DNA from: a virus
Virus record (IMG/VR): IMGVR_UViG_3300017991_000072
Span: 1-64,000 of that record
Strand: one strand, 5' to 3'
DNA length: 64,000 nt
Part shown: positions 25,219 to 41,577 of the stretch, one piece after another
How positions within the stretch are numbered: position 1 is the first letter of the stretch
How the letters are laid out: each line of letters starts with the position of its first letter
The notes under the pieces: generated by a model
Databases searched by the model: none
What the model was told of the DNA's origin: nothing
What the model saw: only the letters and a program-made list of their open reading frames with translations
Program-made: the position numbers and the translations under genes

Positions 25219-25527
25219 TCATGGACCTCCGTTCCCTTGGCGTTCAATATCGCGTTGGGCCTCTTCAAGCTGTTGGATCAGCTCCGTGACTTTGGACTGA
25301 AGGTCAGGAACCAGACATTGGCGCTGACTTAGGGCCGTGACCAAACTGACCACAGCCTGACCCAGGGTTACCACGGAGACGGAATTTTTATCCACAGCCC
25401 TGGCCATCACCTTCATGGCTTCGTTCTGGTCCTTCTGTTGATCTCTGGACCACTTCAACATGATGATGACAGCTACCAGGACGATCCCCGCCGTCCCAAG
25501 ATCAGCCAACCAAGATAGTTCATTCAA
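25219..25527 (-). CDS. holin-like single-span membrane protein, about 102 aa
   Basis: TTG at 25527 lies 5 nt after CAGGAGG and is preferred; an in-frame ATG at 25554 sits inside the preceding gene. The protein has one transmembrane helix near its N-terminus (TAGIVLVAVIIMLKW), then a charged amphipathic/coiled-coil tail. One-span proteins of this layout (BhlA-like) occur among phage holins, so a lysis role is possible. No endolysin is recognised next to it. Confidence 0.6.
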   Translation of the reverse strand: MNELSWLADLGTAGIVLVAVIIMLKWSRDQQKDQNEAMKVMARAVDKNSVSVVTLGQAVVSLVTALSQRQCLVPDLQSKVTELIQQLEEAQRDIERQGNGGP

Positions 25528-26731
25528 TGTAGCCTCCTGACCCTGTTTCTTCATCCGCCACGCCGCCAGTCAGGCCGTGACCTGAACCCGTGGAAGCCGA
25601 AGAAGCCCGGCTGGCGTAGACGCCCGCCTGTTCGTTGGTCAAAGTGATGGTCCCCGCGTTGTCAGGGGTGGTCACCTGACCGTTCCCATCTATGTCAAAG
25701 TAGTCAGCGCCGGTCCCCACCACCTGGTAGAGCCCGTCCGTGATCCCCGCGTTCCCCGTGATGTCAACCCAGACGCCGTAGTCCTGGTCATTCTGGGACA
25801 GAGCCCCACAGGTGATCCTCCAGACATCTCCGCCCTGGTCCGCCACGTTGGTGATGGTCTTTCCAGCCCCACAGGTCACGTCCGCCTTGATGGACACATA
25901 GCTGGAATGGCGTGTCTGGACCGCCCGTTTACAGGACTGGATCACCGTGTTCTCCACGGAGCCCTTGGAATTCCCCACCAGGTATATCCCCGCTTCCTCC
26001 CTGGCGATATAACAGCCCGTGACCACGATGTTCCCCGCTTCAATGACGTAGATCCCCGTCCTGTTGGCCGCGTAGGCGTCATCCGCTATCAGACAGTCCT
26101 TGACCGTCACGTCATCACATTGGGAGATGGCCACGCCGCCGCCGTTGTTCTCCATCCCGTAGACCTTCAGGCCGTCCAGGATGACTCCGTTGGACCTGGC
26201 CACGATGACCGCCACTGTGGCCGGAGCGCCAAGACTGGGGAAGACAGCGCCAAGGGGGTTCTCCGCCTTGATCCGTAGCTTCCCAGTTCCCTGACATTTC
26301 ACGCCGTCCACCCAGATCCACGCCGGAACGCTGACAGTCCCGTAGGGATGAACCGTCAGCTCCCTGGTGATGGGATTGGAAGCGTAGGTCCCGTCCGCCA
26401 ACTGGATGGTCACTTCACAGTTCTTGACGGACTTCCCCGCTACCAGCGCCAAGGCCGCGTTCACGGAAGCCAATGGGTTGACATCCGCGCCTGATCCCTC
26501 CGCGTCATCCCCTCCCGTGGGGTCCACGTAGATGGTCAGGGGCTTGGTGATGGTCTCTTCCTTCATCCTGATGGCCATATATTGGTCAGGCGTCAGGATC
26601 TTCAGTCCCCCGCCGCCATCCCTGACCACGTAGTCCCCAATGTCCCCGTGGACCGTGTAGCCAGGAGAAGGAAACACCTTCCCTATCTCCATGTCCACGG
26701 GAGCCGCCAGGACCTCAACTATTTCATACAT
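25520..26731 (-). CDS. tail fibre-like beta-helix protein, paralogue 3, 403 aa
   Basis: The ATG at 26731 follows CATAGGAGGTCACC. Residues about 60-90 hold YVDPTGGDDAEGSG..NP..S...AL.LV.GK, a hallmark entry to right-handed beta-helix domains. The rungs have repeated V..C.I....GI patterns. It is a paralogue of the next two genes. A host-surface binding or degrading role is inferred from the fold. Confidence 0.8.
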   Translation of the reverse strand: MYEIVEVLAAPVDMEIGKVFPSPGYTVHGDIGDYVVRDGGGGLKILTPDQYMAIRMKEETITKPLTIYVDPTGGDDAEGSGADVNPLASVNAALALVAGKSVKNCEVTIQLADGTYASNPITRELTVHPYGTVSVPAWIWVDGVKCQGTGKLRIKAENPLGAVFPSLGAPATVAVIVARSNGVILDGLKVYGMENNGGGVAISQCDDVTVKDCLIADDAYAANRTGIYVIEAGNIVVTGCYIAREEAGIYLVGNSKGSVENTVIQSCKRAVQTRHSSYVSIKADVTCGAGKTITNVADQGGDVWRITCGALSQNDQDYGVWVDITGNAGITDGLYQVVGTGADYFDIDGNGQVTTPDNAGTITLTNEQAGVYASRASSASTGSGHGLTGGVADEETGSGGYIE

Positions 26732-26740
26732 GGTGACCTC

Positions 26741-27997
26741 CTATGATCCCACCCTGATGACTCCGCCGTTGAATTCACTGTCCAAGCCTGAACCTTTAAT
26801 GGAAGATGTCCCTGATCTCCAGATCACGCCGTTGTCCTCCGCCCTGTGGGCCGCGTTTTTCTGGGAAGGCGTGGCCACACCTGTCTGTCCCAGGTTTTCC
26901 TCCATGGGCACTTCTGAAGCGTCCACGTCCAGGTAGTTAGGACCAGCGCCAGCGTTCAAGACCCGAAGGTTGGCGTTATTGACCAGGGGAGTCAGCCCCG
27001 TGGTCTTGACCCATCGTAGGAAGTCCTGTTCATCCTGGGTCAGAGTCTCCGAAATTAGAAGCCTGAAGACATCTCCACCCATGTCCTGGACGCCTGTGAC
27101 CGTCAAAGACCGTCCACTGGTACAGTCATTGTCAACCGTAAGGACTCCACAGCTTTCCGCTTTGACTCCGTACTTGTTACTGTGGACCGTACACTTGGAC
27201 AGCCCCACGAAAGAACCGAAGCCTGACACCGCCCCTTCACTGAAGCCCGCCAGATAACATTCCGTGGCCGTGACGTATTCGCTGTTCAGCGGAAAAATGG
27301 CCGGGAAGAATGGGGGGCTCAACAGACCAGGGGGGTCAGGGTAGGCGTCCGCCATGTAACAGTTGAAGAAATGGACAGACTTGGACTGGCTGATACCGGC
27401 CAGCCCGCGTATCTTCATTCTGTGGATCTGGATGTTCTCACACAAGAGAATAGCCAGACCATAGGTGTTCCACGTGAAGTATCCGGGGCCTTCACCCTGG
27501 ATGATGAACTGTCCACCGGCTACTCCAGAGATCCTTCTAGGGCAACAGTAGGATGTCCCTGGAACCGTGATCCACCCTACGTCCCTGGAGTAGATGTATT
27601 CAACCCCAGACCATTCATTCAGGGAGTAGTCACCGTCCGCCACATGAAGCGTGACGGTAGTGGCCTCTATGGTCTTCCCTTCCATCTGGCCCAAGACCTT
27701 CTCAAATGACCTCCAGGGGTTGGCCTCTGTCCCGTCCCCAACAGCATCATCCCCCGTTGGGGAGATGTAGATGTCCGTGGGCGTGTTGATCACAGACTGG
27801 GCCAGCCGCCAGGCCGTGAAGTCTTCGTCCTTCACTATGACCTGGTAGCCGTCTTCGTAAGTTATCAGCCAGTCCGGGTAGTCCCCGGAGATCTCCTCCG
27901 TGTAGATTGGGGTCCCACCTGGACCGTCCAAGGCTTCCCTTGGCGTGATGGTGGTAGGCCCCGTCAACTGAACCGCTGTGTATCTTGGCGCACTCAT
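26741..27997 (-). CDS. tail fibre-like beta-helix protein, paralogue 2, 418 aa
   Basis: The ATG at 27997 follows GAGGAGGCTTTGTC and overlaps the preceding gene's stop. The same entry motif is present (YISPTGDDAVGDGTEANPW), followed by beta-helix rungs with asparagine/cysteine turns. Three such genes in a row suggest alternative or heteromeric receptor-binding proteins. Paralogous to 25520-26731 and 27994-29454. Confidence 0.8.
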   Translation of the reverse strand: MSAPRYTAVQLTGPTTITPREALDGPGGTPIYTEEISGDYPDWLITYEDGYQVIVKDEDFTAWRLAQSVINTPTDIYISPTGDDAVGDGTEANPWRSFEKVLGQMEGKTIEATTVTLHVADGDYSLNEWSGVEYIYSRDVGWITVPGTSYCCPRRISGVAGGQFIIQGEGPGYFTWNTYGLAILLCENIQIHRMKIRGLAGISQSKSVHFFNCYMADAYPDPPGLLSPPFFPAIFPLNSEYVTATECYLAGFSEGAVSGFGSFVGLSKCTVHSNKYGVKAESCGVLTVDNDCTSGRSLTVTGVQDMGGDVFRLLISETLTQDEQDFLRWVKTTGLTPLVNNANLRVLNAGAGPNYLDVDASEVPMEENLGQTGVATPSQKNAAHRAEDNGVIWRSGTSSIKGSGLDSEFNGGVIRVGS

Positions 27998-29454
27998 GAC
28001 AAAGCCTCCTCTATGAGATCATCAGGCCACTGTAGCGTGTTGGGGTTTCCGCGTAGGTGCCATTGGGTGATGTAGTAGGGGACGTAGACCGTCCCGCCGT
28101 ATCTGGAGTGAACCGCTGGTCCTATGTTGGAGATGTCCACGGACCCGGGGCTGGTGGCCTCATTTGCCGCTGTGGGGTTGTAGGCCCTGATGATGTTGTC
28201 CTCCCCCAAGGACTGGGGGGTGGCCAAGACATCAAAGAACCCGTTATTCTGGGACGCCGCGTCATAGACGTAGATCTGGTTGATCTCCTGGTCCCACCTG
28301 TGAAGGGTTCCCTCCAAGGTGATGACCATGTTGTCCCCGTCCTTCGCTATGCTAAGGATTTCATAGGGGTTATTGTAGCCTGACTTGGTGTTGGACCCTA
28401 GTTCAATGACTGATCCGTGAACGGCTGAAACGCCCAGAGTGTTTCCGTAGCTGTTGACGTATCTGGTACTGACCTGGGATCCAGCGTCAGCCAGTATTCC
28501 TTCACTACCTCCAAAGAACCAACAGTTGGTGAACAGGATCCCACGGCTATCCCTGACCCAGACCTTGGGCCAGTTCCGTGGAATGGAGGGAGCGTAGGTA
28601 TAGCCCATGATCATCCAGGCCAGGTGACAGTTTTCACACCTGTCTATCAGCCCGTAGAAGCTTCTGTGGCCTGAAACATAGATCCCCGAACACCTAGTCA
28701 TCCCAAATGTCCCGCCGTTGGCTGACCCGTAGGCGTCCACGCTAAGGAAGCCTCCAGCTCCGTCATGGGGTCCTATGAACACGTTGGCCCCGTTGATGGC
28801 GTGGGTGTCCGTCAGGGACAAGGAGACGTTCCCAAACAAGACTTCATTCCCTGTGTTTCTCCGGAGCCAGGGGTGAAGCTTCTTGATGACGCCGTTGTAG
28901 GCGTCCTCCGTTGGGCCTGGTTCAATGAAGATCCTGACCAGGACTCCCGGTCCCGTGACCGTCTTTCCCCTGATCTGATCCGCCGCCTTGTTAGGGCTGA
29001 ACCATGGGTTCCCTATCGTCCCGTCTCCTGTGACATCGTCCCCGCTGTAGTGAACGTAGTAGTCCACAGACTCCGTGATGAAGCCTGGTGACGGTCCCGC
29101 CGGTCCTTCTGGCCCTGGTGGCCCTGGGACGCCCCCGCCACCAATGGCAGAAACGCCCCTAGACGCGAAAGGGCCAGACATCACCCGAACTTCCACGGTT
29201 CCGGCTACCGCCCTGACCCCTATGACTTCAGGGGTTCCTTGGCCTTCTCCTCCGAAGGCCAGAGACTCCCCCAAGGACAGGATGGGACTGACCGATGGGT
29301 CCGCGTCTGGGACCTTCCCTTCAGTGATGTAGATCTCTCCGTCTATGGCCGTCACTACCAGGGGGTCCCTGGCGTTCTCTGTCCTGATCAGCGTTCCTGA
29401 CCCGTCATCAGAGAAATGGCCGCCTTTCTTGTTTTCAAGGATGAAATCAGCCAT
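27994..29454 (-). CDS. tail fibre-like protein with collagen-like stretch, paralogue 1, 486 aa
   Basis: The ATG at 29454 follows AGGGAGGATGTG. The N-terminal 110 residues form a beta domain. This is followed by a short collagen-like segment (GPPGPEGPAGPSPG) that commonly trimerises phage fibres. Then comes the entry motif YYVHYSGDDVTGDGTIGNPW and a beta-helix. It is the longest of the three paralogues and probably a receptor-binding protein. Confidence 0.82.
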   Translation of the reverse strand: MADFILENKKGGHFSDDGSGTLIRTENARDPLVVTAIDGEIYITEGKVPDADPSVSPILSLGESLAFGGEGQGTPEVIGVRAVAGTVEVRVMSGPFASRGVSAIGGGGVPGPPGPEGPAGPSPGFITESVDYYVHYSGDDVTGDGTIGNPWFSPNKAADQIRGKTVTGPGVLVRIFIEPGPTEDAYNGVIKKLHPWLRRNTGNEVLFGNVSLSLTDTHAINGANVFIGPHDGAGGFLSVDAYGSANGGTFGMTRCSGIYVSGHRSFYGLIDRCENCHLAWMIMGYTYAPSIPRNWPKVWVRDSRGILFTNCWFFGGSEGILADAGSQVSTRYVNSYGNTLGVSAVHGSVIELGSNTKSGYNNPYEILSIAKDGDNMVITLEGTLHRWDQEINQIYVYDAASQNNGFFDVLATPQSLGEDNIIRAYNPTAANEATSPGSVDISNIGPAVHSRYGGTVYVPYYITQWHLRGNPNTLQWPDDLIEEALS

Positions 29455-29717
29455 CACATCCTCCCTTCCTTCTCCAGGTCACTGACGTTCTTCCGCGTCA
29501 AGGTGGCCTGGCCTGTGATGACCTCCTGGGCCGTGGCCTTCATCCTGGCGTTCAAGGGGGACAGGGGCTTCATGAACTTGTCATTGTCCCCTGGCTTTCC
29601 CTTGCCAGGACGGAGACCCGTGTTGGTGGCCAGGGAGGACGTGGGCCGCTTGGGGGTCCGCTTTGCCCGTTCCTTCCGCGACAGAAACCGGCTGTTAATT
29701 CCCAACTGGTTAGCCAT
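29454..29717 (-). CDS. small basic late protein, 87 aa
   Basis: The start ATG at 29717 lies 8 nt inside the end of the previous gene (ATGGCTAA). Rich in K/R/N with an RKERAKRTPKRPTSS region and a helical C-terminus. Unrecognised. Possibly a virion-internal or assembly factor. Confidence 0.6.
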   Translation of the reverse strand: MANQLGINSRFLSRKERAKRTPKRPTSSLATNTGLRPGKGKPGDNDKFMKPLSPLNARMKATAQEVITGQATLTRKNVSDLEKEGRM

Positions 29718-30313: not shown

Positions 30314-30751
30314 TCAGGCCAGAACGATGGTCAAGACTTGGATCAGAGCGTAGAGCGTAGTCTTCCCAAGGGACTTCAGAAACTTCTTCCGCCTCTTGGC
30401 TTCGTCTATCAGCTCCAACATCTCCTCCGCGTTTGACGTTAGTGACTTGATGACCAGGGCCGCGTCCATGTGGTCAGCCGCCAGCTCCAAAGCCTCCTCC
30501 AGCTTTCCCTGGCGAAGCTTGAAGTAGATGACTTCCAACAGCTCCCGGCCAAAGGCCAGGAACAGGTCCGCGTTCTGGACAAGAACTTGAAGGTCCGTGG
30601 CTGTGAATAGATCTCCCACAGGGAGATCACCAAGGGAAAGATCACCCAAAGGGGTCTCTATGGTAGGTCCCGTGTCTTCCGTGTGACTTTCAAGAAGGTC
30701 TTTGACAGTGTCTACCGCTTTTTCCCAATCTTCACTTTTCAGTGTACCCAT
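30314..30751 (-). CDS. hypothetical helical protein with C-terminal membrane segment, 145 aa
   Basis: Long amphipathic helices are followed by a hydrophobic C-terminal tail (LYALIQVLTIVLA) that could anchor it in a membrane. No SD is visible before ATG 30751, and a promoter-like sequence ends only a few bases upstream. The mRNA may be almost leaderless, or this is an internal gene read through from upstream. Unknown function. Confidence 0.6.
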   Translation of the reverse strand: MGTLKSEDWEKAVDTVKDLLESHTEDTGPTIETPLGDLSLGDLPVGDLFTATDLQVLVQNADLFLAFGRELLEVIYFKLRQGKLEEALELAADHMDAALVIKSLTSNAEEMLELIDEAKRRKKFLKSLGKTTLYALIQVLTIVLA

Positions 30752-30816: not shown

Positions 30817-31716
30817 TCAGGATACCAGGAACGTCTTCATGGAGTCCAAGGGGAGCCTGTGACAAGAAGAGACCGTCTCCCCAAGAGGAACACCAGCCTC
30901 CTTTCCTATCAGTTGGCCTACTTCCCAGATGGGCCTGGCCTCCTCCTCCACGCCTTCCTTCCCAGAGTAGACACAGAGCGTGTCCGTGGCGTGTTCTCCT
31001 CCGAAGGGGTCAAAGCCGTGGTCTCCACAGACCACCCAGAAATCAGGCTTCAACATCCAGACCAACAGGCTGAAGATCTGTTCCAGCCAGGAGTAGATCC
31101 CCAAGACCCCGTTGGAAGCTAGGTTGGGGTAGGCGTGGGACACCCTGTCCGCCGCCTTGGTCCCCACACAGACAATGTCACGCCGCCGTAGATCGTTAGC
31201 GTGGCGGAACAGGAACCCGCTGTGGTAGCCAAGAACCAGGACCAGCTTGTCCAGGATGGCCTCCGCGTGGTCCCCGCTGTTCATGTAGCCCCACGTGGTT
31301 CCCAGTCTTTCGTCCATGATGTCAAACAGGAATTCCTCCGGAAGATCAATCCCCTGGGCCACTTCCAGATCCGTGGGACAAGGGAAGCCTGGAATGATCC
31401 AGCTCTTCCCGTGGGCCTTTAGGCCCCACGTGAACGGGGCCAGGAAGGACGCTATGTTCTCTCCATCCAGCCAGGTGGAAGACCTGACATCCGCGAAGGT
31501 AGGCCCTGACAAGGACCTCCCGTTCATGATGACCCCGTGATCCACAGGAGCCAGGCCCGTGTAGACGCTGGCCCAGTTTGGCCCAGAGTAGGGCCGTCCC
31601 TCTATGATGTCTGTGACCACAGACTCCGCTCTGAAGAAGGTCCCCTGTCTGGTGAAGAATTCCTTTTCCTTGGCGTAGTGGTAGGACAGCCCGTCCACAG
31701 CGTAAACTAGGATCAT
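30817..31716 (-). CDS. alkaline-phosphatase-superfamily phosphodiesterase/phosphatase-like protein, 299 aa
   Basis: The ATG at 31716 follows AAGGAGGAGGAGCC. Motifs fit the superfamily. A first metal Asp is in LVYAVDGLS (residue 8). A likely nucleophile Thr or Ser lies in GPNWASVYTG (about 45-53). DRVSHAYP (about 191) and CGDHGFDPFGGEHAT (about 232-246) supply the D..H and DHG...H metal ligands. The family hydrolyses phosphate or sulfate esters or diesters. No signal peptide is seen, so it may be virion-borne or cytoplasmic. Unusual cargo for a phage late operon. Confidence 0.8.
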   Translation of the reverse strand: MILVYAVDGLSYHYAKEKEFFTRQGTFFRAESVVTDIIEGRPYSGPNWASVYTGLAPVDHGVIMNGRSLSGPTFADVRSSTWLDGENIASFLAPFTWGLKAHGKSWIIPGFPCPTDLEVAQGIDLPEEFLFDIMDERLGTTWGYMNSGDHAEAILDKLVLVLGYHSGFLFRHANDLRRRDIVCVGTKAADRVSHAYPNLASNGVLGIYSWLEQIFSLLVWMLKPDFWVVCGDHGFDPFGGEHATDTLCVYSGKEGVEEEARPIWEVGQLIGKEAGVPLGETVSSCHRLPLDSMKTFLVS

Positions 31717-31728
31717 GGCTCCTCCTCC

Positions 31729-34700
31729 TTAGATGTCATCCCCGAAGACTATGATCTGGTCTATTTCAATGGCGTCCCCAATGGTTGGGTCTTGGTTCTG
31801 GAACCTTATTCCAAAATTGGCGTTATTGTCACAGGCTCCGCCTGAATGGGTGGAGATGTTGAAGACGTGGGGTCCTGTCCACAGCGTTGGGCTTTGGAAG
31901 ACCGTTCCCCTGGTGGTGTAGGTGGACCCGTTGGTGGTGTAGAGAAGCGTGACATCCGCGTTGTCATCCGTAGTAGCCCAGAAGGAGACCCTGATGTTGT
32001 CCTTCCCCACTGTGGAGATGGGCATGGTGATATGGTGGTTAGCGCCTCCGTTCAGGACCACATAGCCCTTTCCAGTGAAGTCCGTGAAGCCGTAGCCCGG
32101 CTTCTGGTACACAGAGTAGCCTTCATCAGGGTTGAAGACCCAGGCTTTCCATTCAGCCCCTACGTGGGCCGTGGACCATTCATTGTGAGCCGTGTATACA
32201 TCGTAAGGAAAGCCGGGATCCGAGTCAGACGATGACCAAGGTGGGATCTCCACTGTGGGCTGACGGTAGTCCTCCCAGTCTTCGTAGAACAGGATACTGT
32301 CAGAGTCAGAGCGCATAGGATAGCCGTCACAGGCCACCAGTTGGATGTGGTCAACGTAGGACTGGCCTGAAGACACTGTTCCATCAGCCAGTTCAAACCT
32401 GATCAATAGCCGCGTGTTATGGCAGAAAGGACCCACGCCACACCAGCGCGTGTTCCCATCAGATATAGGGGGTGGCTCTTCAGCCCATTCATGAGCGCCC
32501 ACCAGGTTCATGGACACGTAGGTCCACGTGGACCCAATGTAGGGAGACTCCCATACTTGACTCTCTGTGGAAATGTTGTGGACCAGCCAGTTGTCCCCAT
32601 CGTTGGGGGAAACCTTGACCGTCAGGTAGCTAGGGCCGGAGTCTCCAACTGTGTGCCAGTTCTTGTACCAGAACCGGATGACAGGTTCATAGCGTCCCCT
32701 CATGTCCAGATGAACCGTGTGGTCCAGCCAGACCGCGTCATCAAAGGCGAACTTGTGGATCCGGCCTTCATAATTGCTCCCGTCCCTCCCATAGTCCGCC
32801 ACGGAGACTTCCGTGGGATCGTCAGCCGTCCAAGGAGGACTCTGGTCTGTCCAGTTCAGTCCATCTTCAAAACTTTCCGTGAACCTGACAAAGCCCGTAC
32901 AGGCCGTAGGCGTTGGGGTTGGCGTTGGCGTGTTCGTTGGCGTATCCGTTGGCGTGTTCGTTGGCGTGAAGGTTGGGGTATTGGTAGGCGTGTTCGTGGG
33001 TGTGTTCGTGGGGGTGGACGTGGGCGTAGGCGTTGGCGTGAACGTGGGGAGCGTGGGGTCATAACAGCCTATCAGCTTCACGTCATCTATGAAGACACAG
33101 GAGGAACTGTTGGTGGTGGGCTTGTCTATCCAGACCTTGAACGTCATGTCATGCTGGTGGGAGTAGACACTGTTGTCCAGGTGGTGTTCACTGTAGCCCC
33201 AAAAATTGTTCCCCGCGTGGCCAAACCCAAAGCTATCCAAAGTCTCCCAGGGACCCGTGGGACCAGGGGCCACCTGGATGTTCCCCTTGGCCGCCTGAAC
33301 TGTGATGGACGCCTTGGTCCAGTAGGAGATGACCAGGTCAACCTGGGACTGGGTGTTGTGGGTGTAGGTGACGTATTTGGCCCCCGTCCCCGTTCCAACT
33401 CCAACCCGTCCTTCACTGTCAGAGTCATCACGCCCGTAGTTCCCTACTTCATACCATGCGTCCTGAACATTCTGATACCAGTTGACCGTCCCTGGGACCG
33501 TGTTCAGTTGGTCAAAGTCACTTTCCAGTTCAAAGTCCTCTTCATAGAGAATTGGACAGGTGGTGGGCGTGGCCGTTGGCGTAGCCGTGGGAGTCAGCGT
33601 GGGCGTGTTCGTAGGAATAGGCGTGGGCGTTGGGGAACACTGGTAGGGTCTACACTTATACAGGTTCCACTGTTTGGCTTCGTTCTGGCGTTCATAGGCT
33701 ATCCATTCCTGGGCCGGGTCCCAGGTCAGGTAGGTGTGGTCATAGGGAGTGATGGTGACCACCTGGCCGCCTGTTCCCGGGGAAGACATGGCCTGGTCAA
33801 CGTCAATGACGAAGACTTGGAAGACTCCCGCGTTGGTCTGTCTCTGACAGGCTATTAACTGACCGTCAGGAGACCACAGGGGCCTGTAGTGGTGATATTG
33901 GCCCCTTGTTATGGAGTAGTCCTCCGCCGGGAAAGGCCCTGTCAGTAGGTCCAAGACACAGATCTGGAAGTAGCCGTCTTCGTCCCTCTTGGCGTATGCC
34001 AGCCCAGAATGTGGTCCCCAGTCAAGGTCTATTCTGTCTCCAGGGGAGGCCGTCAGCGGATCCTCCACAGCCATCCCCACGCCCGCCTTGGGATCCGTCA
34101 GGTCAGCCCTGTAGACGTTGAAATTCAGATCAATCCCGTCCTGTTTGATGTAGGCCGCTGTGTTATCATCTGGGCTGAAGCAAGGGAACCCGCGCCAGTT
34201 GGAGTAGTCCGTGACGTTCCTGAACCCTGGCCCCGCCTGGTATAACATGATCTGCCAATGGCCTGATCCCCGCTCTGGCTCCCTTCTACACATCAGCCAT
34301 AAGTTATCAGAAGAGTATTTGACCTGACCGTAGTCTATGGTGTCATCCCCAATCCCAAACCACATCTGGCCAAGACCCGCCACGCCTGTGAACGCCAGCT
34401 TGGTCCTCCCGGTGGTGTTGTTCATGACCTCCGCTATCCCCGCCATGGGTGGTCCTCCAAAGGACGCCCTGGGCCTGAAATGGCTGTAGTCCGCGTTGGC
34501 CGTGACAGGATAGTTCCGCTCCTCCGCCAGGTTCCAGGCTCCTGTCTGGAAGCCGTAGGTGGGGTCCAGGTAGCTGTGAAAGATCCAGTCCCCCGCTGGA
34601 GCCCAGTGTGGATGTCTATGGGTAGACGCTGACTTCTTGGCGCTGATCCTGATGTTGTCCACGTAGAAGGGAGAATTCATCCCAGGGACAGAGTCAGACT

Positions 34701-36192
34701 GGGACCTGAACCTGATGACCAGATCGTTCTGGTTATCACAGGCCGCTGGAAGCGTCTTGGTTTCGTTCTTCCACTCCATGGGGGTGGAGATCTCCATTCC
34801 GTCCATGAAGTCATGTTGAACCCACGGACCTCCTGGCCCGTCCACAGAGTAGTCCAGGTAGCCCTTGGTGTAGGGAGGAAAGATGTCTGTCCCCGTCCAG
34901 CGCCAAGAGACCGTCACGTCCTTCATGGACTGGGTGTTCAGTTGGATGTAGGCGTATTCCACAGCGCCTTCCAGGGAGTCAATCAGCCCTTCATAGGTAC
35001 TGTCCGCCGCGCCGTAGTCCGCCACTGTGACCTTGGCCTCCGTGGACTCCGTCCAGGCCGGGTCCTGGGAGTCCCAGTCCTGGCCGTCTTCAAAGTCTTC
35101 ATAGACCAGGTCCACCAGGTCAGGAACCGTGATCAGGATTTCAGGACACACCTGGGGAAGAGGGGTTGGCGTGGCCGTAGGCGTGGCCGTGGGGACCACG
35201 GGGGTAGGCGTGTTCGTTGGGCCTGGAATGGGCGTGGCCGTGGCTATGGGCCTGACACCTGGGGGTGGGTCCGTCTCTGGGTCAAAGTAGAGCCGGAGCG
35301 CGTAGCGTCCAAGGTAGGCCCCTGGGTCAGGATCCTCTGGCCCCTCCCAGGCTTCTCCATCTTGCCACTTCAGCCAGCCGTAGCCTCCTTCCCCCCAACC
35401 TAGCCCCCAGGAATTCTTGATCTTGAACGCTGATATACTGTCATCATAGCCCACAATGGCTACCGCGTGGGTCCCCAGATATTCTCCCCAAGCGTATTCA
35501 TAGACGCCCCCCGTGTAGTAGATGATGTCTTCATAGATGACCAGCGTGGCCTCCACGGGACCTCTGAAGACCGCCGCCTTGATGGCCTCCACGTTGACGG
35601 TTCCGTAGGATAACCAGGACCATTGATTGACCTTCCAGACTCTATCTTCCCAGTCTTCACACCGGTCAAAACAGTTGTTATCCACGCCAGAGTAGCGGAG
35701 ACAGGCGTCATCTGGGACGCCCGTGTTCTTGAATAACTGGGCCGCCGCTGAAATAGACATCCCTATTTCACAGTCTCCGCCTCCACAGGAGAAGACGAAC
35801 TGTTCAGACAGATCTATGGAGTAGTCCTGGAAGCCCGTGACGATCCTGACCACAGCTTCATAGACCGCCACCTGGCTGAAGGCCGAACAGGCCCCACAGC
35901 TTCCCTGTTGTTTGACGGAAGTCATCCACGGGGACCAGTCCCAGTAGGGAGGAAGAAGGGAGAAGGCCGTGGCTGGCGGATCGTCTCCGGCTGACGTGTC
36001 ATGGGGTGGTTCCGACGCCGGGAACATGGACTTCAGTTGGGCCGTTGACTTCTCTGACAGAGATGTGTGGCCCGCTGACCAGTTCAAGCCCTTGTCCTGG
36101 ATCTCCTGTTGGATCGTGGTCATCTTGACCGCGTCCCCCAGAGCCCACACAGTCACCAAACACATCCACGTCCACAGGATGGACTTCTTCAT
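31729..36192 (-). CDS. secreted papain-family (C1A) protease with beta-propeller and repeated beta-sandwich modules, 1487 aa
   Basis: The start ATG at 36192 (ATGA overlap) begins a signal-peptide-like stretch ([19 protein letters not shown]). The protease domain spans about residues 70-310. It has [10 protein letters not shown] (catalytic Cys near 99), [12 protein letters not shown] (His near 245) and [14 protein letters not shown] (Asn near 261). Linkers of P, T and N (TPTNTPT type) lie near residues 320-345, 860-880 and 1050-1095. Between them are a WD/TolB-like propeller region (about 540-850) and about four modules opening with (E/S)FE.G..W. This layout is common in Chloroflexota secreted proteins. 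Substrate unknown; virion or host-surface proteolysis is inferred. Confidence 0.85.
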
Positions 36193-36959
36193 CCGCTGTC
36201 CTCCGCTTCACCCCCTGGAACGGGGGTCTCTGGTTCGCTGGTTCCGTTCGTGTTCCCGCCTTCTTCGTCCTCCCCCTCTTCTTCCTTTGGACGTTCCTTC
36301 CCGTTCAAGAGACAGTCAAAGGAAGTCCACAGCTCCGCGTTGATCTTGATGAACGCCTGTTCCTCTTCCCTGGTGGTCTTCTCTTCCTCCACCAGCTCCG
36401 CCATCCTCCTGGACAGGATGGCGTTCTGGGCCGTCATGGTCTTGGCCGCGAAGGGAACACAGCCGGTCAGAGTCAGCGCCAAGAGAAGGAGGCCCGTGGC
36501 CTGGGCCGCGAAGGCTGACGCCTTGGCCAGCTTCCTCTTCAGCCTTCTCTTCACCTTCGCCTCCTCCTTCTTCTTCAGCTTCTTGACCATCTCCCTGGTC
36601 AAGTCTCTGTATTCGTCGGGGGTTGAAACGTAGACTTCCTCCGGCGGAGAGTGATATTCACACCAGCCGTCTGACCCGTATTCTCTACAGATGTGGGTTC
36701 GTCGCTGTCTATGAATTGAACAGCGTCCCCGTTCAAGATACTGGCAAGGGATTCTGACGTAGAGCGTCCAGGCTCCTTCTTCTGGTCTTCCTCCATCAGT
36801 CTCCGGAGTGAATCCAATGACTGTCTGTCCGTTTCTATACAGATACCAGAGGCCATATTCCCATTCCTCCAAGGTGGTGGGCTTGTCCAGCTCCATTCCG
36901 AAATACTCACAACACCGTCCGCCACATTCAGGGGGACATCCACGGGGGTTCTGGGCCAT
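36189..36959 (-). CDS. YkgJ-like Cys-cluster domain fused to lipobox-like segment, 256 aa
   Basis: The ATG at 36959 follows AAGGAGGAGACG. Residues 8-100 have the Cys pattern of YkgJ/UPF0153 metal-binding proteins (CPPECGGRCCEYF, then CQYLERGRCSIH and CREYG). A very basic helix follows, then LLLLALTLTGC near residue 165, which looks like a lipoprotein signal with lipobox LTGC, then a coiled coil and an acidic tail. The second half may start internally at an ATG before VKKLKKK and form a separate lipoprotein (spanin-like). First gene of the late operon. Confidence 0.7.
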   Translation of the reverse strand: MAQNPRGCPPECGGRCCEYFGMELDKPTTLEEWEYGLWYLYRNGQTVIGFTPETDGGRPEEGAWTLYVRIPCQYLERGRCSIHRQRRTHICREYGSDGWCEYHSPPEEVYVSTPDEYRDLTREMVKKLKKKEEAKVKRRLKRKLAKASAFAAQATGLLLLALTLTGCVPFAAKTMTAQNAILSRRMAELVEEEKTTREEEQAFIKINAELWTSFDCLLNGKERPKEEEGEDEEGGNTNGTSEPETPVPGGEAEDSG

Positions 36960-37116: not shown

Positions 37117-37207
37117 CACACTATACTGTAGGCCGCGCCCACGGACGCCCCCACATCTTGGGCCTGAAAAAAAGTTCTCCCTGGGTCATTTTTTCTTCAT
37201 TTTTCTC

Positions 37208-37236
37208 TTGACAAATGGACGGGGATGGTTTAGACT
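37208..37236 (+). promoter_or_regulatory. early promoter P1 (TTGACA-17-TAGACT)
   Basis: Preceded by the T-rich block TTTTTTCTTCATTTTTCTC shared with the other early promoters. Six bases separate the -10 from the ATG at 37243, so the transcript is predicted to begin at that ATG. Confidence 0.85.
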
Positions 37237-37242
37237 ATAGCC

Positions 37243-37536
37243 ATGATGAACGAAGAAACAAACCCCAAACCCCAGGAGGCCAAGATGATCACCCTGACAG
37301 ACGAACAGATAGCCGTAGTGGCGGAAGCGGACAGCGTTCATGACTACGCCTGGTCCTACATCACCATCAGGAAACAGACCGCGTCCTTCCAGCGGGCCTT
37401 CTACCTGGTGGAGACGATGGTTCACAAGGCTGAACACATGGAACTGGCGGAGGACCAGGTGTCAGGGCTCCAGGTGGCCACGGAATGGCTGAAACATGAG
37501 ATCAAGAACGCGGGCCACCCAGTAGCCGGACTGTAG
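37243..37536 (+). CDS. early protein, 97 aa (or 83 aa from ATG 37285)
   Basis: Two in-frame starts: a leaderless-type ATG at 37243 (with ATG 37246) and ATG 37285, which follows CAGGAGGCCAAG. The 14-codon leader is P/K/N/E rich. The core protein is helical (ITLTDEQIAVVAEADSV...), small and acidic, and unrecognised. First gene of the first rightward unit, followed by a hairpin (37545-37573) and a second gene. Confidence 0.75.
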   Translation: MMNEETNPKPQEAKMITLTDEQIAVVAEADSVHDYAWSYITIRKQTASFQRAFYLVETMVHKAEHMELAEDQVSGLQVATEWLKHEIKNAGHPVAGL

Positions 37537-37544
37537 AACCCCAC

Positions 37545-37573
37545 GGGCTCCCTGGGGATCACCCAGGGAGCCC
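37545..37573 (+). other. intercistronic GC hairpin
   Basis: GGGCTCCCTGGG and CCCAGGGAGCCC form a 12-bp stem with a short loop. No U-tract follows, so it is not a standard terminator. Similar hairpins separate most co-transcribed early genes. Confidence 0.7.
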
Positions 37574-37595
37574 AGAACCCCAGAAGGAGGACCCC

Positions 37596-37787
37596 ATGAT
37601 ACGGACGAAGAAAGCCAAGAAGGTTCTGACGAAGAAGGAACAGCGCCACCTGACAGAGTCCAACATACACACCATGGCCGCCATGGAGCGCCAGGTGGCC
37701 TTCCTGAAGACCTACGAAGGGAACCCCACCATCTATCCCTGTTGGGAGTGTAGGGCCATAGCCCGGAAGCTTGGTCTGATGGACTGA
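37596..37787 (+). CDS. small early protein, 63 aa, CWEC motif
   Basis: The ATG at 37596 follows AGAAGGAGGACCCC. It is basic at the N-terminus (IRTKKAKKVLTKKEQR) and has YPCWECRAIARKLGL near the C-terminus, a single CxxC. Possibly a minimal zinc or RNA-binding protein. Unknown. Confidence 0.7.
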   Translation: MIRTKKAKKVLTKKEQRHLTESNIHTMAAMERQVAFLKTYEGNPTIYPCWECRAIARKLGLMD

Positions 37788-37803
37788 CGCCCAGGACCCC
37801 CGT

Positions 37804-37842
37804 GACCCCTGGAGAAAAAAATTCTCCAGGGGTCATTTTTTC
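37804..37842 (+). terminator. intrinsic terminator fused to next promoter
   Basis: GACCCCTGGAGAA and TTCTCCAGGGGTC form a 13-bp stem followed by ATTTTTTC. The T-run continues directly into the -35 of the next promoter. Confidence 0.85.
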
Positions 37843-37854
37843 TTCATTTTTCTC

Positions 37855-37883
37855 TTGACTTTTCTGGCTCCCTGGGTTACAAT
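37855..37883 (+). promoter_or_regulatory. early promoter (TTGACT-17-TACAAT)
   Basis: Same T-rich upstream block as P1. Six bases separate the -10 from the ATG at 37890. Confidence 0.85.
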
Positions 37884-37889
37884 AAGATC

Positions 37890-38324
37890 ATGGAAACACA
37901 GAAAACACCCCAAACCCCCAAGGAGGAGACGATGAACTGGACCAAAGAAATCAGCCAAGAGGCCGCTGACAAGGTGAAGAAGGCTGGCTACGTGGACCCC
38001 ACAGCCAACCATCACCTGATCTCTGAAGCCGCCGCTGAAGCCCACACGATCCTGGGCCAGGAGATCTTCCTGGCGAAGGACCACGCCTGTGAAGTCAGCG
38101 TCCAGATCCCCAAGACGATCACGGATGAATTCCAGGCCACCTATGACGCCTACAAGCTGATCATGATGGAGATGGAAGCCATCCACCCGGCCAACAAACC
38201 AGAACTGACGCCCCAAGGCTATGACCGCCTGATGGCTGGCCTTCAGGAAAAGGCCGCGCCCCTTCGTTCCAAGCTTTACTCCCTGGAGATGGTCCTGGTG
38301 TCCATCGTCCAGGCCCAGATCTGA
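37890..38324 (+). CDS. early protein, 144 aa (130 aa from ATG 37932)
   Basis: Dual in-frame starts: ATG 37890, six bases after the -10, and ATG 37932 after AAGGAGGAGACG. The leader encodes METQKTPQTPKEE. The core is alpha-helical and acidic with no Cys or membrane segment. Unknown function; likely takeover or regulatory protein by early position. Confidence 0.75.
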   Translation: METQKTPQTPKEETMNWTKEISQEAADKVKKAGYVDPTANHHLISEAAAEAHTILGQEIFLAKDHACEVSVQIPKTITDEFQATYDAYKLIMMEMEAIHPANKPELTPQGYDRLMAGLQEKAAPLRSKLYSLEMVLVSIVQAQI

Positions 38325-38333
38325 CGAACCACG

Positions 38334-38360
38334 GGGGAGGGACCACGGGGGTCCCTCCCC
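38334..38360 (+). other. intercistronic GC hairpin
   Basis: GGGGAGGGACC pairs with GGTCCCTCCCC. No U-tract. Separates the two genes of this unit. Confidence 0.7.
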
Positions 38361-38391
38361 TTCCCCCAACCCCACAGAGGAGGACAAGAAG

Positions 38392-38826
38392 ATGAAAGCC
38401 ACCAAGGACCAGATCAGAGGAATAGTAGGAGTCTTCCAGGACATCCTGGCCAAGGCGGAAGACAAGCTGAACACCAAGGAGATGGAGATGACAGAGCCCT
38501 ACGCCCACTACACTCCCGCCAAGGACGGAGGGACCTACAGGGCTGTCTGTCTGAATGACCTTCCCAGTGAAGCCTTCCAGGCCATGGACTCCGCCACGGA
38601 GGCCGTCTCCCGCGCCAAGATGGTCATCAGGGAAGGACTCCGCTTCTGGGAATTGGGTCAGATCTCTGATGAAGACCTGGTCTTCAAGGCCGCCCAGGCC
38701 AACGTCAACCTGGCCATGGAGGCCGTGGACAAGGCCCTGGAAGCCCCCAACCCCAGGCCCAAGACCAGGCCCAGGCCCATCAAGGCCAGGTTTGGGGAGA
38801 CCAGGCCAGCGTTCCCCGTGTCATAG
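38392..38826 (+). CDS. early protein, 144 aa
   Basis: The ATG at 38392 follows AGAGGAGGACAAGAAG. Helical core with Y-rich middle (YAHYTPAKDGGTYRAV). The C-terminal 25 residues are a P/R/K repeat (NPRPKTRPRPIKARF) that may be disordered or bind nucleic acid. Second gene of its unit; unrecognised. Confidence 0.75.
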   Translation: MKATKDQIRGIVGVFQDILAKAEDKLNTKEMEMTEPYAHYTPAKDGGTYRAVCLNDLPSEAFQAMDSATEAVSRAKMVIREGLRFWELGQISDEDLVFKAAQANVNLAMEAVDKALEAPNPRPKTRPRPIKARFGETRPAFPVS

Positions 38827-38835
38827 TTGACACAG

Positions 38836-38872
38836 CCCCCTGGTGAAAAAAAATTCGCCAGGGGGTCTTTTT
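38836..38872 (+). terminator. intrinsic terminator fused to next promoter
   Basis: CCCCCTGGTGAA and TTCGCCAGGGGG form the stem, followed by TCTTTTTTC. One internal mismatch. It leads directly into the promoter at 38887. Confidence 0.85.
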
Positions 38873-38886
38873 TCTTCACTTTTCTC

Positions 38887-38915
38887 TTGACAAATGGGGG
38901 ACCATGGTTTATAAT
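38887..38915 (+). promoter_or_regulatory. early promoter (TTGACA-17-TATAAT)
   Basis: Consensus -35 and -10. Six bases separate the -10 from ATG 38922. Confidence 0.9.
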
Positions 38916-38921
38916 AGAGCC

Positions 38922-39383
38922 ATGATGAAGGAAGGAAACAAACCCCAAACCCCCCAAAAGGAGGAGGACCTGATGATGACCCTTCAAGAAGCTACCGCTG
39001 GACTGATCGCTGGAACCGTGACCACGGATGACCTGAAGGTCCAAGGGTTCACGGCTGATGAACTGATCGCTGTGGTGGAGGCCATCCCGCCGTTCACAGG
39101 CTGTCCCTGTTGTTCGGATGAAGAGCCCGGCGCTGACTACGCGGACTTCAACATGTCCCTGTCCCGTCAGTTGGCCTTGGCTGACGTGAAGGTCTGTGGG
39201 TCCTGTGGAGCCATCCACGGAACCGTGGAGACCTGGGAAGCGGCCCACATGGTCTACCACCCCACGATGGTGGCCAAGGCCACGGGGGAGGAGATCTACG
39301 TGGACCTGACGATCCGTTCAGAGAATGAACGGTTCCATGGCTGGATGGACTCCGCCACCAAGAACCTGACCCAGGTTGGCTAG
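38922..39383 (+). CDS. early zinc-binding-like protein, 153 aa (136 aa from ATG 38973)
   Basis: Dual starts: ATG 38922/38925, and ATG 38973/38976 after AAAAGGAGGAGGACCTG; in frame, 17 codons apart. The core has GCPCCSDEEPG and KVCGSCGAIHG, two Cys pairs about 35 residues apart that could form one zinc site. Helical before and after. Unrecognised; may relate to the zinc proteins of the right arm. Confidence 0.78.
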   Translation: MMKEGNKPQTPQKEEDLMMTLQEATAGLIAGTVTTDDLKVQGFTADELIAVVEAIPPFTGCPCCSDEEPGADYADFNMSLSRQLALADVKVCGSCGAIHGTVETWEAAHMVYHPTMVAKATGEEIYVDLTIRSENERFHGWMDSATKNLTQVG

Positions 39384-39400
39384 GACCTGGGAGGAAGCCA

Positions 39401-39424
39401 GGGAGGGACCCGTGGGTCCCTCCC
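39401..39424 (+). other. intercistronic GC hairpin
   Basis: GGGAGGGACCC pairs with GGGTCCCTCCC around a 2-nt gap, followed by TTCTTC. A weak terminator function is possible, but another gene with its own SD follows at once. Confidence 0.7.
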
Positions 39425-39457
39425 TTCTTCGTTCAACCCCAAACCCAGGAGGAGACG

Positions 39458-39664
39458 ATGACCAGAGAAGAGGCCCAACGGATGGACCCAGAGGAGGCCA
39501 AGCTGAAGGCCAAGAGACTGGCCCAGGAAGCTGATGAACTGATCTCCAAGATGGAACTGGCCCACCCCCATTCCCAACGCTACACTGAACTGTGGAACGA
39601 ACTGACAGCCGTGGAACAGGAACAGCTAGTTCTGACCTGGGCTCCAGGCTACGGAGCCTGGTGA
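39458..39664 (+). CDS. small early protein, 68 aa
   Basis: The ATG at 39458 follows CAGGAGGAGACG. Acidic, all-helical (EEAKLKAKRLAQEADELISK), no Cys. Unrecognised. Last gene of its unit, before a strong terminator. Confidence 0.75.
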   Translation: MTREEAQRMDPEEAKLKAKRLAQEADELISKMELAHPHSQRYTELWNELTAVEQEQLVLTWAPGYGAW

Positions 39665-39722
39665 CGGAATAGAGCCCAGGCCCTACCCCTGGCGAACGAT
39701 CCAGGGGAGGGACCTGGGACGG

Positions 39723-39756
39723 GAGCCCCGGCGTTCAGACCGGGGCTCTTTTTTTG
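39723..39756 (+). terminator. intrinsic terminator
   Basis: GAGCCCCGG and CCGGGGCTC stem followed by seven T. Ends the unit starting at 38887. The composite element copy A lies just beyond. Confidence 0.9.
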
Positions 39757-39772
39757 TCTGGATCCCCTGGCC

Positions 39773-39827
39773 TATGCTCCGCCTCCGCACCGTCCCGGAT
39801 GTGGTATTATCCCACCACAATGTCAAG
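39773..39827. promoter_or_regulatory. composite element, copy A
   Basis: TATGCTC (39773), CCGTCCCGGAT (39790), then the inverted repeat TGTGGT-8-ACCACA (39800-39819) and GTCAAG (39822). Same order as copies B and C. Lies between a terminator and a promoter; operator, enhancer or partition role inferred. Confidence 0.65.
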
Positions 39828-39877
39828 AGAAGAGTGAAAAAAATTTCGTCTGGTGTCAAGATTTCTTCATTTTTCTC

Positions 39878-39907
39878 TTGACTTTTAGGATTGACCTGGG
39901 GTATAAT
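39878..39907 (+). promoter_or_regulatory. early promoter (TTGACT-18-TATAAT)
   Basis: Preceded by ATTTCTTCATTTTTCTC. Unlike most, no ATG stands at the predicted start; a long structured leader follows. Confidence 0.85.
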
Positions 39908-39913
39908 AGGGCC

Positions 39914-40001
39914 ACAGTCAAGATAGTTGACTGGTTGAATTCGGATCTTTGACAACTGAATAACGGACACAGAAACCCCCAAACCCCAAGGAGGGAAACC
40001 C
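39914..40001 (+). promoter_or_regulatory. long 5' leader with hairpin and rRNA boxA-like sequence
   Basis: CAGTCAA-5-TTGACTG forms a 7-bp hairpin (39915-39933). Next comes GATCTTTGACAACTGAATAA (39944-39963), which closely resembles boxA-type antitermination signals of bacterial rRNA leaders and spacers. The gene's SD (AAGGAGGG) follows at 39989. A Nus-type antitermination site is inferred and could allow read-through of the downstream terminators. Confidence 0.5.
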
Positions 40002-40241
40002 ATGGACGTGTTCTCTGTTCTGATCATCGTGGCTGTGGTTCTGACCAAGGTGGAGGCCCTGGAGGACGCCCTGGAGGCTTCTGAAGCGGACTTCTTCCCC
40101 GCCCAGGTCCTTGTGGTCCTGGTGGCCAGGGACGCCCTGGTGGGAGCCCTGGCGGGCTTCCTGGAGACGGGAACGGGGCTCCAGGATCTCCTGGACGCGG
40201 CCCTGGACCTGGATGACGCCCTGGTCAAGCTGGCGAAGTAG
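40002..40241 (+). CDS. small hydrophobic/acidic early protein, 79 aa
   Basis: The ATG at 40002 follows AAGGAGGGAAACCC. N-terminus VFSVLIIVAVVLTKVEALEDALEA is hydrophobic then acidic; the rest is L/A/D/V-rich. It may be a membrane-associated peptide or an acidic mimic. It is the only product of the boxA-like leader unit. Function unknown. Confidence 0.7.
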   Translation: MDVFSVLIIVAVVLTKVEALEDALEASEADFFPAQVLVVLVARDALVGALAGFLETGTGLQDLLDAALDLDDALVKLAK

Positions 40242-40248
40242 AAACAGA

Positions 40249-40284
40249 CCCCCAGAGAAAAAAATTCTCTGGGGGTCATTTTTT
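40249..40284 (+). terminator. intrinsic terminator fused to next promoter
   Basis: CCCCCAGAGAA and TTCTCTGGGGG with an A5 loop, followed by TCATTTTTTC, then directly the T-rich block of the next promoter. Confidence 0.9.
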
Positions 40285-40297
40285 CTTCATTTTTCCC

Positions 40298-40326
40298 TTG
40301 ACTTTTAGGAATGGGTGGTTTATAAT
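40298..40326 (+). promoter_or_regulatory. early promoter (TTGACT-17-TATAAT)
   Basis: Six bases separate the -10 from ATG 40333. Confidence 0.9.
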
Positions 40327-40332
40327 AGGGTC

Positions 40333-40638
40333 ATGATGAACGAAGGAAACAAACCCCAAACCCCCAAGAAGGAGGAAACCATGAACCAGATGACAACGAA
40401 GAAGAACGCGGGAAGAGACATGGTCCGGAAGGTGAAGGCGGAACAGATGTCCTTTGTGACGGAGGACCAGTTGGCCGTTATCGCGGAGGACGATGAAACC
40501 AGGATGACCCCCATCCTTGTCCGCTGTGGGAATGGACGCTTCACGTGTCCCGCCCAGAACGCGGCCTGGTTCATTGACATCATCACCAAGGAAGGGACGG
40601 ACTACGTCAGGGACGCCTCCATCTACTCCAGCTACTAG
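40333..40638 (+). CDS. early protein, 101 aa (85 aa from ATG 40381)
   Basis: Dual starts: ATG 40333/40336 at the predicted transcript start, and ATG 40381 after AGAAGGAGGAAACC, 16 codons apart in frame. The leader encodes a MNEGNKPQTPKKEE-type peptide. The core has a basic start, a helix and RCGNGRFTCPAQNAAWF with two Cys. Unrecognised; single-gene unit. Confidence 0.75.
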   Translation: MMNEGNKPQTPKKEETMNQMTTKKNAGRDMVRKVKAEQMSFVTEDQLAVIAEDDETRMTPILVRCGNGRFTCPAQNAAWFIDIITKEGTDYVRDASIYSSY

Positions 40639-40652
40639 CCTGAACCCCTCCA

Positions 40653-40690
40653 GCCCCCCAGAGAAAAAAATTCTCTGGGGGGCCTTTTTT
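40653..40690 (+). terminator. intrinsic terminator fused to next promoter
   Basis: GCCCCCCAGAGAA and TTCTCTGGGGGGC stem followed by CTTTTTTC. Confidence 0.9.
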
Positions 40691-40703
40691 CTTCACTTTT
40701 CTC

Positions 40704-40732
40704 TTGACTTTCTTGACGGGGTGGGCTATAAT
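40704..40732 (+). promoter_or_regulatory. early promoter (TTGACT-17-TATAAT)
   Basis: Six bases separate the -10 from ATG 40739. Confidence 0.9.
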
Positions 40733-40738
40733 AAGATC

Positions 40739-41191
40739 ATGGAAACAGCGAACAAACCCCAAACCCCCAAACCCCAGGAGGACAGAATGTCAGTCACACA
40801 GTTCAGCGCGGAAGCCGTTTCCCAGATGGCCCACAGCATAGCCGCCCACGCCCGTCTTGATGAAGAGTTGGCGGAGATCATCCTGGAGTCCAAGGCGGCC
40901 CACCACGCTGGCCGCGTGGAGTTCAACCTGGACACGGATGACGTTTCCTTCAAGCTGGTCCACTACATGAGGCTGTCCAACCTGGTGGCCTACTCCATCC
41001 AATACCAGGAGCCCATGGTTCCCGTCTACACCATTGATGACTACTACGGGGAACCCCTGGTGGCCAAGGAGCTGGCGGAGGAAATTGACCACTGGATCTA
41101 CAACGTCCAGACCAACGCGGGGACCGCCCTGGTGGACCCGCTCTGGTTTGAACTGTTCCAGGCTGTCAGGGACCACCTGGCCGCGAAGTAG
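40739..41191 (+). CDS. early protein, 150 aa (134 aa from ATG 40787)
   Basis: Dual starts: ATG 40739, and ATG 40787 after CAGGAGGACAGA, 16 codons apart in frame. The core is mixed alpha/beta and acidic, with YSIQYQEPMVPVYTIDDYYGEP in the middle. No known motif. Single-gene unit between two terminator-promoter cassettes. Confidence 0.75.
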   Translation: METANKPQTPKPQEDRMSVTQFSAEAVSQMAHSIAAHARLDEELAEIILESKAAHHAGRVEFNLDTDDVSFKLVHYMRLSNLVAYSIQYQEPMVPVYTIDDYYGEPLVAKELAEEIDHWIYNVQTNAGTALVDPLWFELFQAVRDHLAAK

Positions 41192-41204
41192 CCCACGGCC
41201 TCCA

Positions 41205-41242
41205 GACCCCCAGAGAAAAAAATTCTCTGGGGGTCATTTTTT
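41205..41242 (+). terminator. intrinsic terminator fused to next promoter
   Basis: GACCCCCAGAGAA and TTCTCTGGGGGTC stem, then ATTTTTTC. Confidence 0.9.
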
Positions 41243-41255
41243 CTTCATTTTTCTC

Positions 41256-41284: not shown

Positions 41285-41290
41285 AAGATC

Positions 41291-41563: not shown

Positions 41564-41577
41564 GGACAGGAACCACG

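Follow-up and report, generated by a model that had tools for sequence, protein, structure and literature searches.

What does an enzyme of the alkaline phosphatase superfamily do among the particle genes of a tailed virus? The question is raised by the minus-strand open reading frame at 30817-31716 of the window, that is, of the whole 64,000-nucleotide stretch of DNA that was analysed, which comes from an IMG/VR virus contig of 99,864 bases. The frame is open from ATG to stop and encodes a compact protein of 299 amino acids without a signal peptide that can be recognised by eye. A Shine-Dalgarno-like sequence, AAGGAGGAGGA, can be read directly on the same strand at 31720-31730; it ends three bases 5' of the phosphodiesterase ATG and overlaps the stop codon (31729-31731) of the papain-like gene upstream. 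The gene is under purifying selection, as dN/dS is 0.153 between the window and L002 (90% protein identity) and 0.245 between the window and L004 (67%).

The metal-ligand motifs VDG, D..SH and DHG...H, to which a sequence-only reading had drawn attention, lie at residues 7-9, 190-194 and 232-234 with H242. By homology, the ligands are D8 (codon 31693-31695), D190 and H194 of DRVSH (codons 31135-31149), D232 and H233 of DHG (codons of D232-H233-G234, 31015-31023), and, as the last, H242 (codon 30991-30993), which stands close behind DHG because a long segment of the cellular relatives is absent. The nucleophile had been left unnamed; alignment gives Ser44, in SGPNW (codon 31585-31587). Position 44 is Thr in L014, L016, L017 and L150. 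The seven residues follow one another as in alkaline-phosphatase-superfamily enzymes, and their roles are presumably those of their counterparts in NPPs. Alignments with relatives at 24-27% identity show no change in the six ligands and either Ser or Thr at position 44; all seven residues are kept in the window protein, the viral alignment rows and L159. W48, Y52, T53, G54, H60, G61, D190, H194, D232, H233 and G234 are invariant in a 67-row alignment, in which the cellular rows end behind DHG and the H242 column is thus viral only.

The protein matches PF01663, the type I phosphodiesterase/nucleotide pyrophosphatase family, at E 8.8e-8 (32.6 bits; Pfam cut-off 23). An AlphaFold2 run with four close sequences only was unusable (pLDDT 29.8). 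The usable model was built from the 67 rows (8 viral and 59 cellular), the cellular ones cut behind DHG because a full-length alignment left the last His of the window protein unmatched to theirs; it has a pLDDT of 75.7 and a pTM of 0.82, and falls under pLDDT 50 at residues 80-85, 139-141 and 282-299. The best PDB matches of the model in Foldseek are Xanthomonas NPP (E 3e-8) and ENPP1/ENPP3. In VIA-align 2 the nearest structure is Xac NPP 7n1s_A (Z 20.8, rmsd 2.8, 223 residues aligned), together with ENPP7 (Z 20.5, 2.9, 228), ENPP1 6xkd_B (Z 20.2, 2.8, 221), chains of iPGM (Z 19.8, 3.1, 231) and 6ael_A with 3'3'-cGAMP (Z 19.7, 2.9, 225). Since these top Z scores differ by about 1 or less, the fold identifies the superfamily with a leaning toward NPPs and leaves the substrate unnamed. 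The core common to the window protein and iPGM says nothing on function, and PF01676 gives no match to the window protein at E up to 1. The alkaline-phosphatase core that the sequence-only reading had expected of a predicted structure is therefore present, and the two-metal site that it had also expected stays a prediction from the conserved ligands. Family match, model and fold comparison together bear out the proposed phosphodiesterase/phosphatase-type class, and assignment to the NPP-type phosphodiesterases of the alkaline phosphatase superfamily is held with high confidence.

The NPPs (Xac NPP, ENPP1-7) have in common with the window protein PF01663, the ligand order, a Ser/Thr nucleophile and the fold (Z 18.6-20.8 at 14-20% identity), whereas they are about 380 residues or more in length and the window protein, at 299, has no visible signal peptide. 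The sulfatase motif, presumably [CS]-x-P-x-R, is not matched, as the window protein reads S-G-P-N-W with no Arg and gives no match to PF00884 at E up to 1. PglZ of BREX (PF08665) also belongs to the alkaline phosphatase superfamily; PF08665 matches L016 (E 2e-4), L017 (4.3e-4) and L023 (0.0089) weakly, all under the cut-off, and the window protein has no match to it at E up to 1 and none in PADLOC. Phosphodiesterase/phosphatase proteins of Mimivirus LCMiAC01 (275 aa, E 9.1e-8) and Hyperionvirus (297 aa, E 1.2e-6) are alike to it by fold, although these are giant viruses, unlike the tailed virus of the window. The window protein is unmatched in PHROGs (E up to 1) and NCBIfam (E up to 10) and has no PDB match by sequence; in PHROGs, L014 and L016 are unmatched and the best match of L017 has an E of 0.07.

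Relatives with the same compact architecture occur in other viruses. When viral contigs were scanned for P.W.[ST]..TG..P..HG, 6 stretches came out, namely three known relatives and L014, L016 and L017, whose PF01663 proteins are 280-322 aa long, and profile scans added L023, L144, L159 and L162. In genome contigs, a stricter motif matched 116 times in 115 stretches; of the 96 complete frames one has 108 aa and the others have 467 aa or more. These long bacterial and archaeal PF01663 proteins, most of them 470-540 aa in length and at 15-22% identity, have P.W.[ST]..TG..P..HG in common with the window protein, and most have DR..H and SDHG. The difference lies behind DHG: from there to the C-terminus the 14 compact rows have 47-89 residues (63 in L156; counted from ELG in L155) and the window protein 68, whereas 87 of 92 long forms have 213 or more (median 243) and the remaining 5 are without DHG. 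The window protein accordingly lacks the long stretch that the cellular forms have between DHG and the final ligand His (68 residues against at least 213).

In a tree built from the part of the protein before the DHG-to-end region, a branch separates 13 compact from 36 long rows (94/78; 94% of bootstrap trees), and the corresponding support was 97/97 in an earlier tree that had 11 compact rows. Support is moderate and the branches are long, and the compact branch is likely to be real. L016 and L017 group with L023 (100/97). A clade of the viral rows alone is possible (51/82 in the earlier tree; in the later one, a p-AU of 0.234 for the viral rows with L156). The branch has cellular members too: L150 and L155 come from genomes in the class to which an Anaerolineales bacterium belongs, and L157, a cut sequence, is probably a further member. 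In L155 (6996-7991) the first Asp, that of D..GH and the DHG are all lost, and to judge from these residues the protein is probably inactive. L156 lies in a phage-like stretch, its structural genes named by reading, that is binned in a genome of the class of L150; L159, a viral contig, has a relative at 84%; and L162 lies with a T4-type portal gene (E 3.7e-28). An archaeal host is possible for L017 because of a weak TFIIB match (E 0.036).

Within the genomes sampled, which are Chloroflexota, the class of the Anaerolineales genome and the phylum of a Planctomycetota genome, the compact branch is mainly viral, with members in several tailed viruses that are unrelated to one another and in a small number of bacterial genomes. 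A first scan of genome contigs yielded 60 stretches, none confirmed. Profile matches were obtained in 5 of 201 genomes for Chloroflexota at E 1e-12, in 38 of 298 (at 1e-18) and 32 of 346 (at 1e-25) for the Anaerolineales class, and in 19 of 294 for the Planctomycetota phylum at 1e-18. Frames under 400 aa among the matches listed number five in the Anaerolineales class scan at 1e-18 (G199, G388, G221, G314 and G410); in the Planctomycetota scan those among the matches listed are G772 and G543, which start within 200 bases of a contig end. The window protein, L014, L017 and L156 found no match by tblastn in 50,697 phage records, a search of limited sensitivity because it also missed gp29 of Haloarcula hispanica tailed virus 1 (HHTV-1).

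This protein of the haloarchaeal virus HHTV-1 (KC292025 22013-22762; 249 aa, annotated hypothetical) was found by fold (E 6.1e-7, TM 0.50). Like the window protein it is compact, with an LGYV tail and ligand motifs recognisable by eye, and its gene lies directly behind the tail tube gene. It differs in having no Pfam match at E up to 0.01, and it falls outside the compact branch in the earlier tree, with an end branch of 5.0.

Two compact genes, L023 (6852-8807) and L144 (4723-6771), carry inteins at one shared place, P46/N47 in window numbering, two residues past the nucleophile; the corresponding codon boundary in the window (31578-31579, minus strand) is empty. The junctions read TGP/C...SN/CWTSLYTG in L023 (321 aa in all) and SGP/C...HN/CWSTIYTG in L144 (369 aa in all), so that each intein has Cys first and Asn last, with Cys next after it. 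Pfam recognises the L144 intein over cut-off (splicing E 1.1e-9, LAGLIDADG E 4.1e-15) and that of L023 weakly and under cut-off (0.0034 and 0.003). The two are 26% alike over 137 residues, and one old gain with losses and two separate gains fit the shared site equally. Inteins usually occupy highly conserved sites of important proteins, and their presence at the active site of L023 and L144 suggests that the site matters.

The window gene is set among structural genes. The papain-like neighbour upstream, noticed in the sequence-only reading, is real (31729-36192, minus strand; 1487 aa; PF00112 E 4e-31) and has by eye a signal-like N-terminus and TPT-rich linkers; it also contains a PD40-like stretch (E 9.5e-4, under cut-off). 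Downstream, at 30314-30751 on the minus strand, lies a 145-aa protein of no convincing family, 86-99% identical in three relatives. Three fibre-like genes occupy 25520-29457 (minus strand), with a beta-helix match over cut-off in the first only (PF13229: 25520-26731, E 4.3e-12; 26741-27997, E 0.031; 27994-29457, none). Three IMG/VR contigs encode close relatives of the phosphodiesterase, at 91, 68 and 68% identity. By its translations, L004 keeps the order papain-like protein, phosphodiesterase, proteins of 145, 96, 91 and 87 aa, fibre-like proteins, terminase. L007 has frames of matching length in the same order, with the phosphodiesterase, the 145-aa protein and the terminase confirmed by tblastn, and L003 shares the gene order from the phosphodiesterase onward. 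To the three fibre-like genes of the window correspond two in each of L003, L004 and L007. The co-location of enzyme, protease and fibres, from which a surface-modifying cassette had been proposed, thus stands and is kept in the window phage group; at the other viral loci whose neighbours were read, no papain-like gene was noticed. In the window group, L156, L162 and HHTV-1 alike, the compact phosphodiesterase gene is surrounded by structural genes.

Other features of the window phage can be noted. By its genes, among them RecA-, PolA-, primase- and DnaB-like proteins read by eye, the phage appears to be bacterial, and its promoter-like repeats have TTGAC and TATAAT-like parts by reading. These repeats number 9 copies of 56 nt within 37165-48210, 63-80% identical to the reference copy (itself excepted), with the consensus AAAAAA.TTC...CTTCA.TTTTC.CTTGAC followed by a TATAAT-like part; several copies are followed by a CCCCAAACCCC leader and an AGGAGG-like site ahead of plus-strand frames. 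An ArdC-type anti-restriction protein with a metallopeptidase domain is encoded at 45270-46226. Weak PF03692 (CxxCxxCC) matches, under cut-off, lie near the phosphodiesterase gene in the window (36189-36959) and in L014 (4883-5239).

The guess at a substrate draws on the neighbours in other lineages. In the lineage of L156 and L159 a glycosyltransferase gene and then a methyltransferase gene lie upstream, the latter with a four-base overlap with the phosphodiesterase gene, and in L162 two glycosyltransferase genes and a methyltransferase gene precede it, the latter overlapping it. The divergent neighbour in L144 is a glycosyltransferase gene, with nucleotide-sugar genes beyond; in L014 a methyltransferase gene is the second gene upstream; and the compact cellular L150 adjoins a sulfotransferase and an ATP sulfurylase/APS kinase. 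Such glycan-type neighbours were not seen in the window group, L016/L017, L023 or HHTV-1. The glycosyltransferase family 2 profile, PF00535, has a match in 4 of 11 records and one over cut-off in 3 of 11, a count that covers PF00535 only and leaves out L156, which lies in a genome; the whole records of the window phage, L003, L004, L014, L016, L017 and HHTV-1 have no PF00535 match. The glycan link thus comes from other lineages, since the record of the window phage has no such match, and the association of glycosyltransferase and methyltransferase with the phosphodiesterase is suggestive only. Their position upstream in two lineages lends indirect support to some glycan-related role, the part of the cassette proposal that concerned surface modification. 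Counting against it, the gene found near the phosphodiesterase gene in L014 and in the lineage of L016, L017 and L023 is instead a small PD-(D/E)XK-like one.

This small gene, labelled from its motif, encodes 107-125 aa and lies near the phosphodiesterase gene in four viral contigs (L014 8305-8682; L016 4377-4739; L022, of the L017 record, 5608-5967; L023 6532-6855). The proteins of L014, L016 and L023 have no Pfam match. As a general partner it was rejected: the window, L005, L006, L007-L009, L144, L150, L155, L156, L157 and HHTV-1 gave no match to it at E up to 0.1.

The account favoured here as a whole, whose chances we put at about even, is that of a soluble, cytosolic NPP-type phosphodiesterase/pyrophosphatase, made late, with a glycan or activated-sugar substrate as best guess. 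The enzyme would be produced together with the particle proteins. The ligands D8, D190, H194, D232, H233 and H242 would hold two divalent metals that activate Ser44, which would attack a phosphodiester or pyrophosphate to give a phospho-serine intermediate that is freed by water; nucleophile, metals and phosphoenzyme are predicted because NPP chemistry is established and the residues are kept. With the segment between DHG and the last His missing, the active site may be more open than in cellular relatives. Action in the cytosol during particle making is suggested by the absence, by eye, of a signal sequence. The substrate would be an activated sugar or a glycan-linked phosphodiester in virus-directed glycan modification, which is ranked first among the candidates and held tentatively. 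A wider version is more doubtful: that a virus-adapted compact NPP branch, found in tailed viruses of bacteria and archaea and tied to the particle stage, builds or trims phospho-glycan with viral glycosyltransferase and methyltransferase on the particle or host surface, the inteins beside the nucleophile in two separate viral branches pointing to the importance of its active site.

The strongest of the alternatives is counter-defence by cleavage of nucleotide immune signals (cyclic di- or oligonucleotides, linear dinucleotides) in the infected cell; it is judged unlikely, and anti-signalling, already a guess in the sequence-only reading, is a guess still. The protein is NPP-like and apparently cytosolic, the compact enzyme is present in unrelated viruses, and its structural neighbours include ENPP1, a cGAMP hydrolase, which makes signal degradation by the window enzyme possible and no more; one fold, however, serves many substrates. 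The downstream 145-aa protein weakly matches Csx1/Csm6 (CARF+HEPN) in PADLOC over residues 42-130 (E 9.5e-4, 16.5 bits); a true match would speak for signal degradation, but this one may be due to chance between helical stretches and is too weak to shift the odds. Among ten proteins compared with PADLOC, the window phosphodiesterase, the papain-like protein, L014, L016, L017, L156, L162 and HHTV-1 gp29 are unmatched, and L150 has a match at E 0.052. The gene also lies among structural genes, whereas counter-signal activity would be most useful early. Acb1 has a 2H fold and Apyc1 a metallo-beta-lactamase fold; both phage anti-signal nucleases differ in fold from the window protein, and they would have nucleotide-signal targets in common with it only if it does degrade such signals. 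A literature search on phage anti-CBASS phosphodiesterases turned up no title with an enzyme of the window type. As a best guess, we infer editing of glycans or activated sugars ahead of immune-signal degradation.

Less likely again is nucleotide processing for the DNA of the phage itself, in salvage or in trimming DNA-modification intermediates. Besides QueC (E 7.5e-26) and QueD/PTPS (E 9.1e-20) of the 7-deazaguanine pathway (L005 16817-18108, or about 79816-81107 of the record), the window record does encode a DNA methylase (PF01555, E 2.1e-17), and one of its proteins matches the calcineurin-like phosphoesterases of PF00149 under cut-off (E 6.1e-4); L014 carries radical SAM, C5 methylase and PAPS-reductase-type genes, and L016 has MazG. 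Against these stand the some 48 kb that separate the phosphodiesterase gene from QueC/QueD, and the link to 7-deazaguanine DNA modification is set low because, of 8 records, the two with PTPS both belong to the window group and none matches the TGT family PF01702. Release of phosphate from diesters by an auxiliary scavenging gene is very unlikely: it would suit the superfamily, and there is a study of phosphorus-acquisition genes in soil phages (PMC10987575), but scavenging enzymes usually work outside the cytoplasm, no signal peptide is visible, and the gene is set among structural genes. Least probable of all is a degenerate or structural relic without catalysis, since the loss known inside the compact branch from L155 is outweighed by the seven residues intact in the window protein, the viral rows and L159, by dN/dS values of 0.15-0.25 for the window gene and by inteins at the active site of L023 and L144.

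In published work, gp48 of A10ZJ24 is a metallophosphoesterase (PMC12287305); PMC7412058 describes a DHH-type phosphodiesterase and a terminase intein, not the compact NPP-type enzyme; and the passages compared from PMC8651126 and PMC3950731 do not contain the word "phosphodiesterase". A literature search of titles and abstract openings returned nothing on the compact viral branch or on an intein in such an enzyme, and gave no description of a glycosyltransferase-methyltransferase-phosphodiesterase cassette.

Neither the fold nor the chemistry is new; the compact branch is, as are its inteins and, in some lineages, its glycan-cassette setting. With no PHROGs family and four members unmatched by tblastn, the compact branch looks like an overlooked viral enzyme family, and inteins in the nucleophile motif are a cheap marker of active-site importance. 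HHTV-1, with its cultured host, makes the role testable. If the enzyme does belong to a glycan cassette, a phosphodiester-handling step would be added to viral glycan biology; if it degrades immune signals instead, another fold would be added to counter-immunity.
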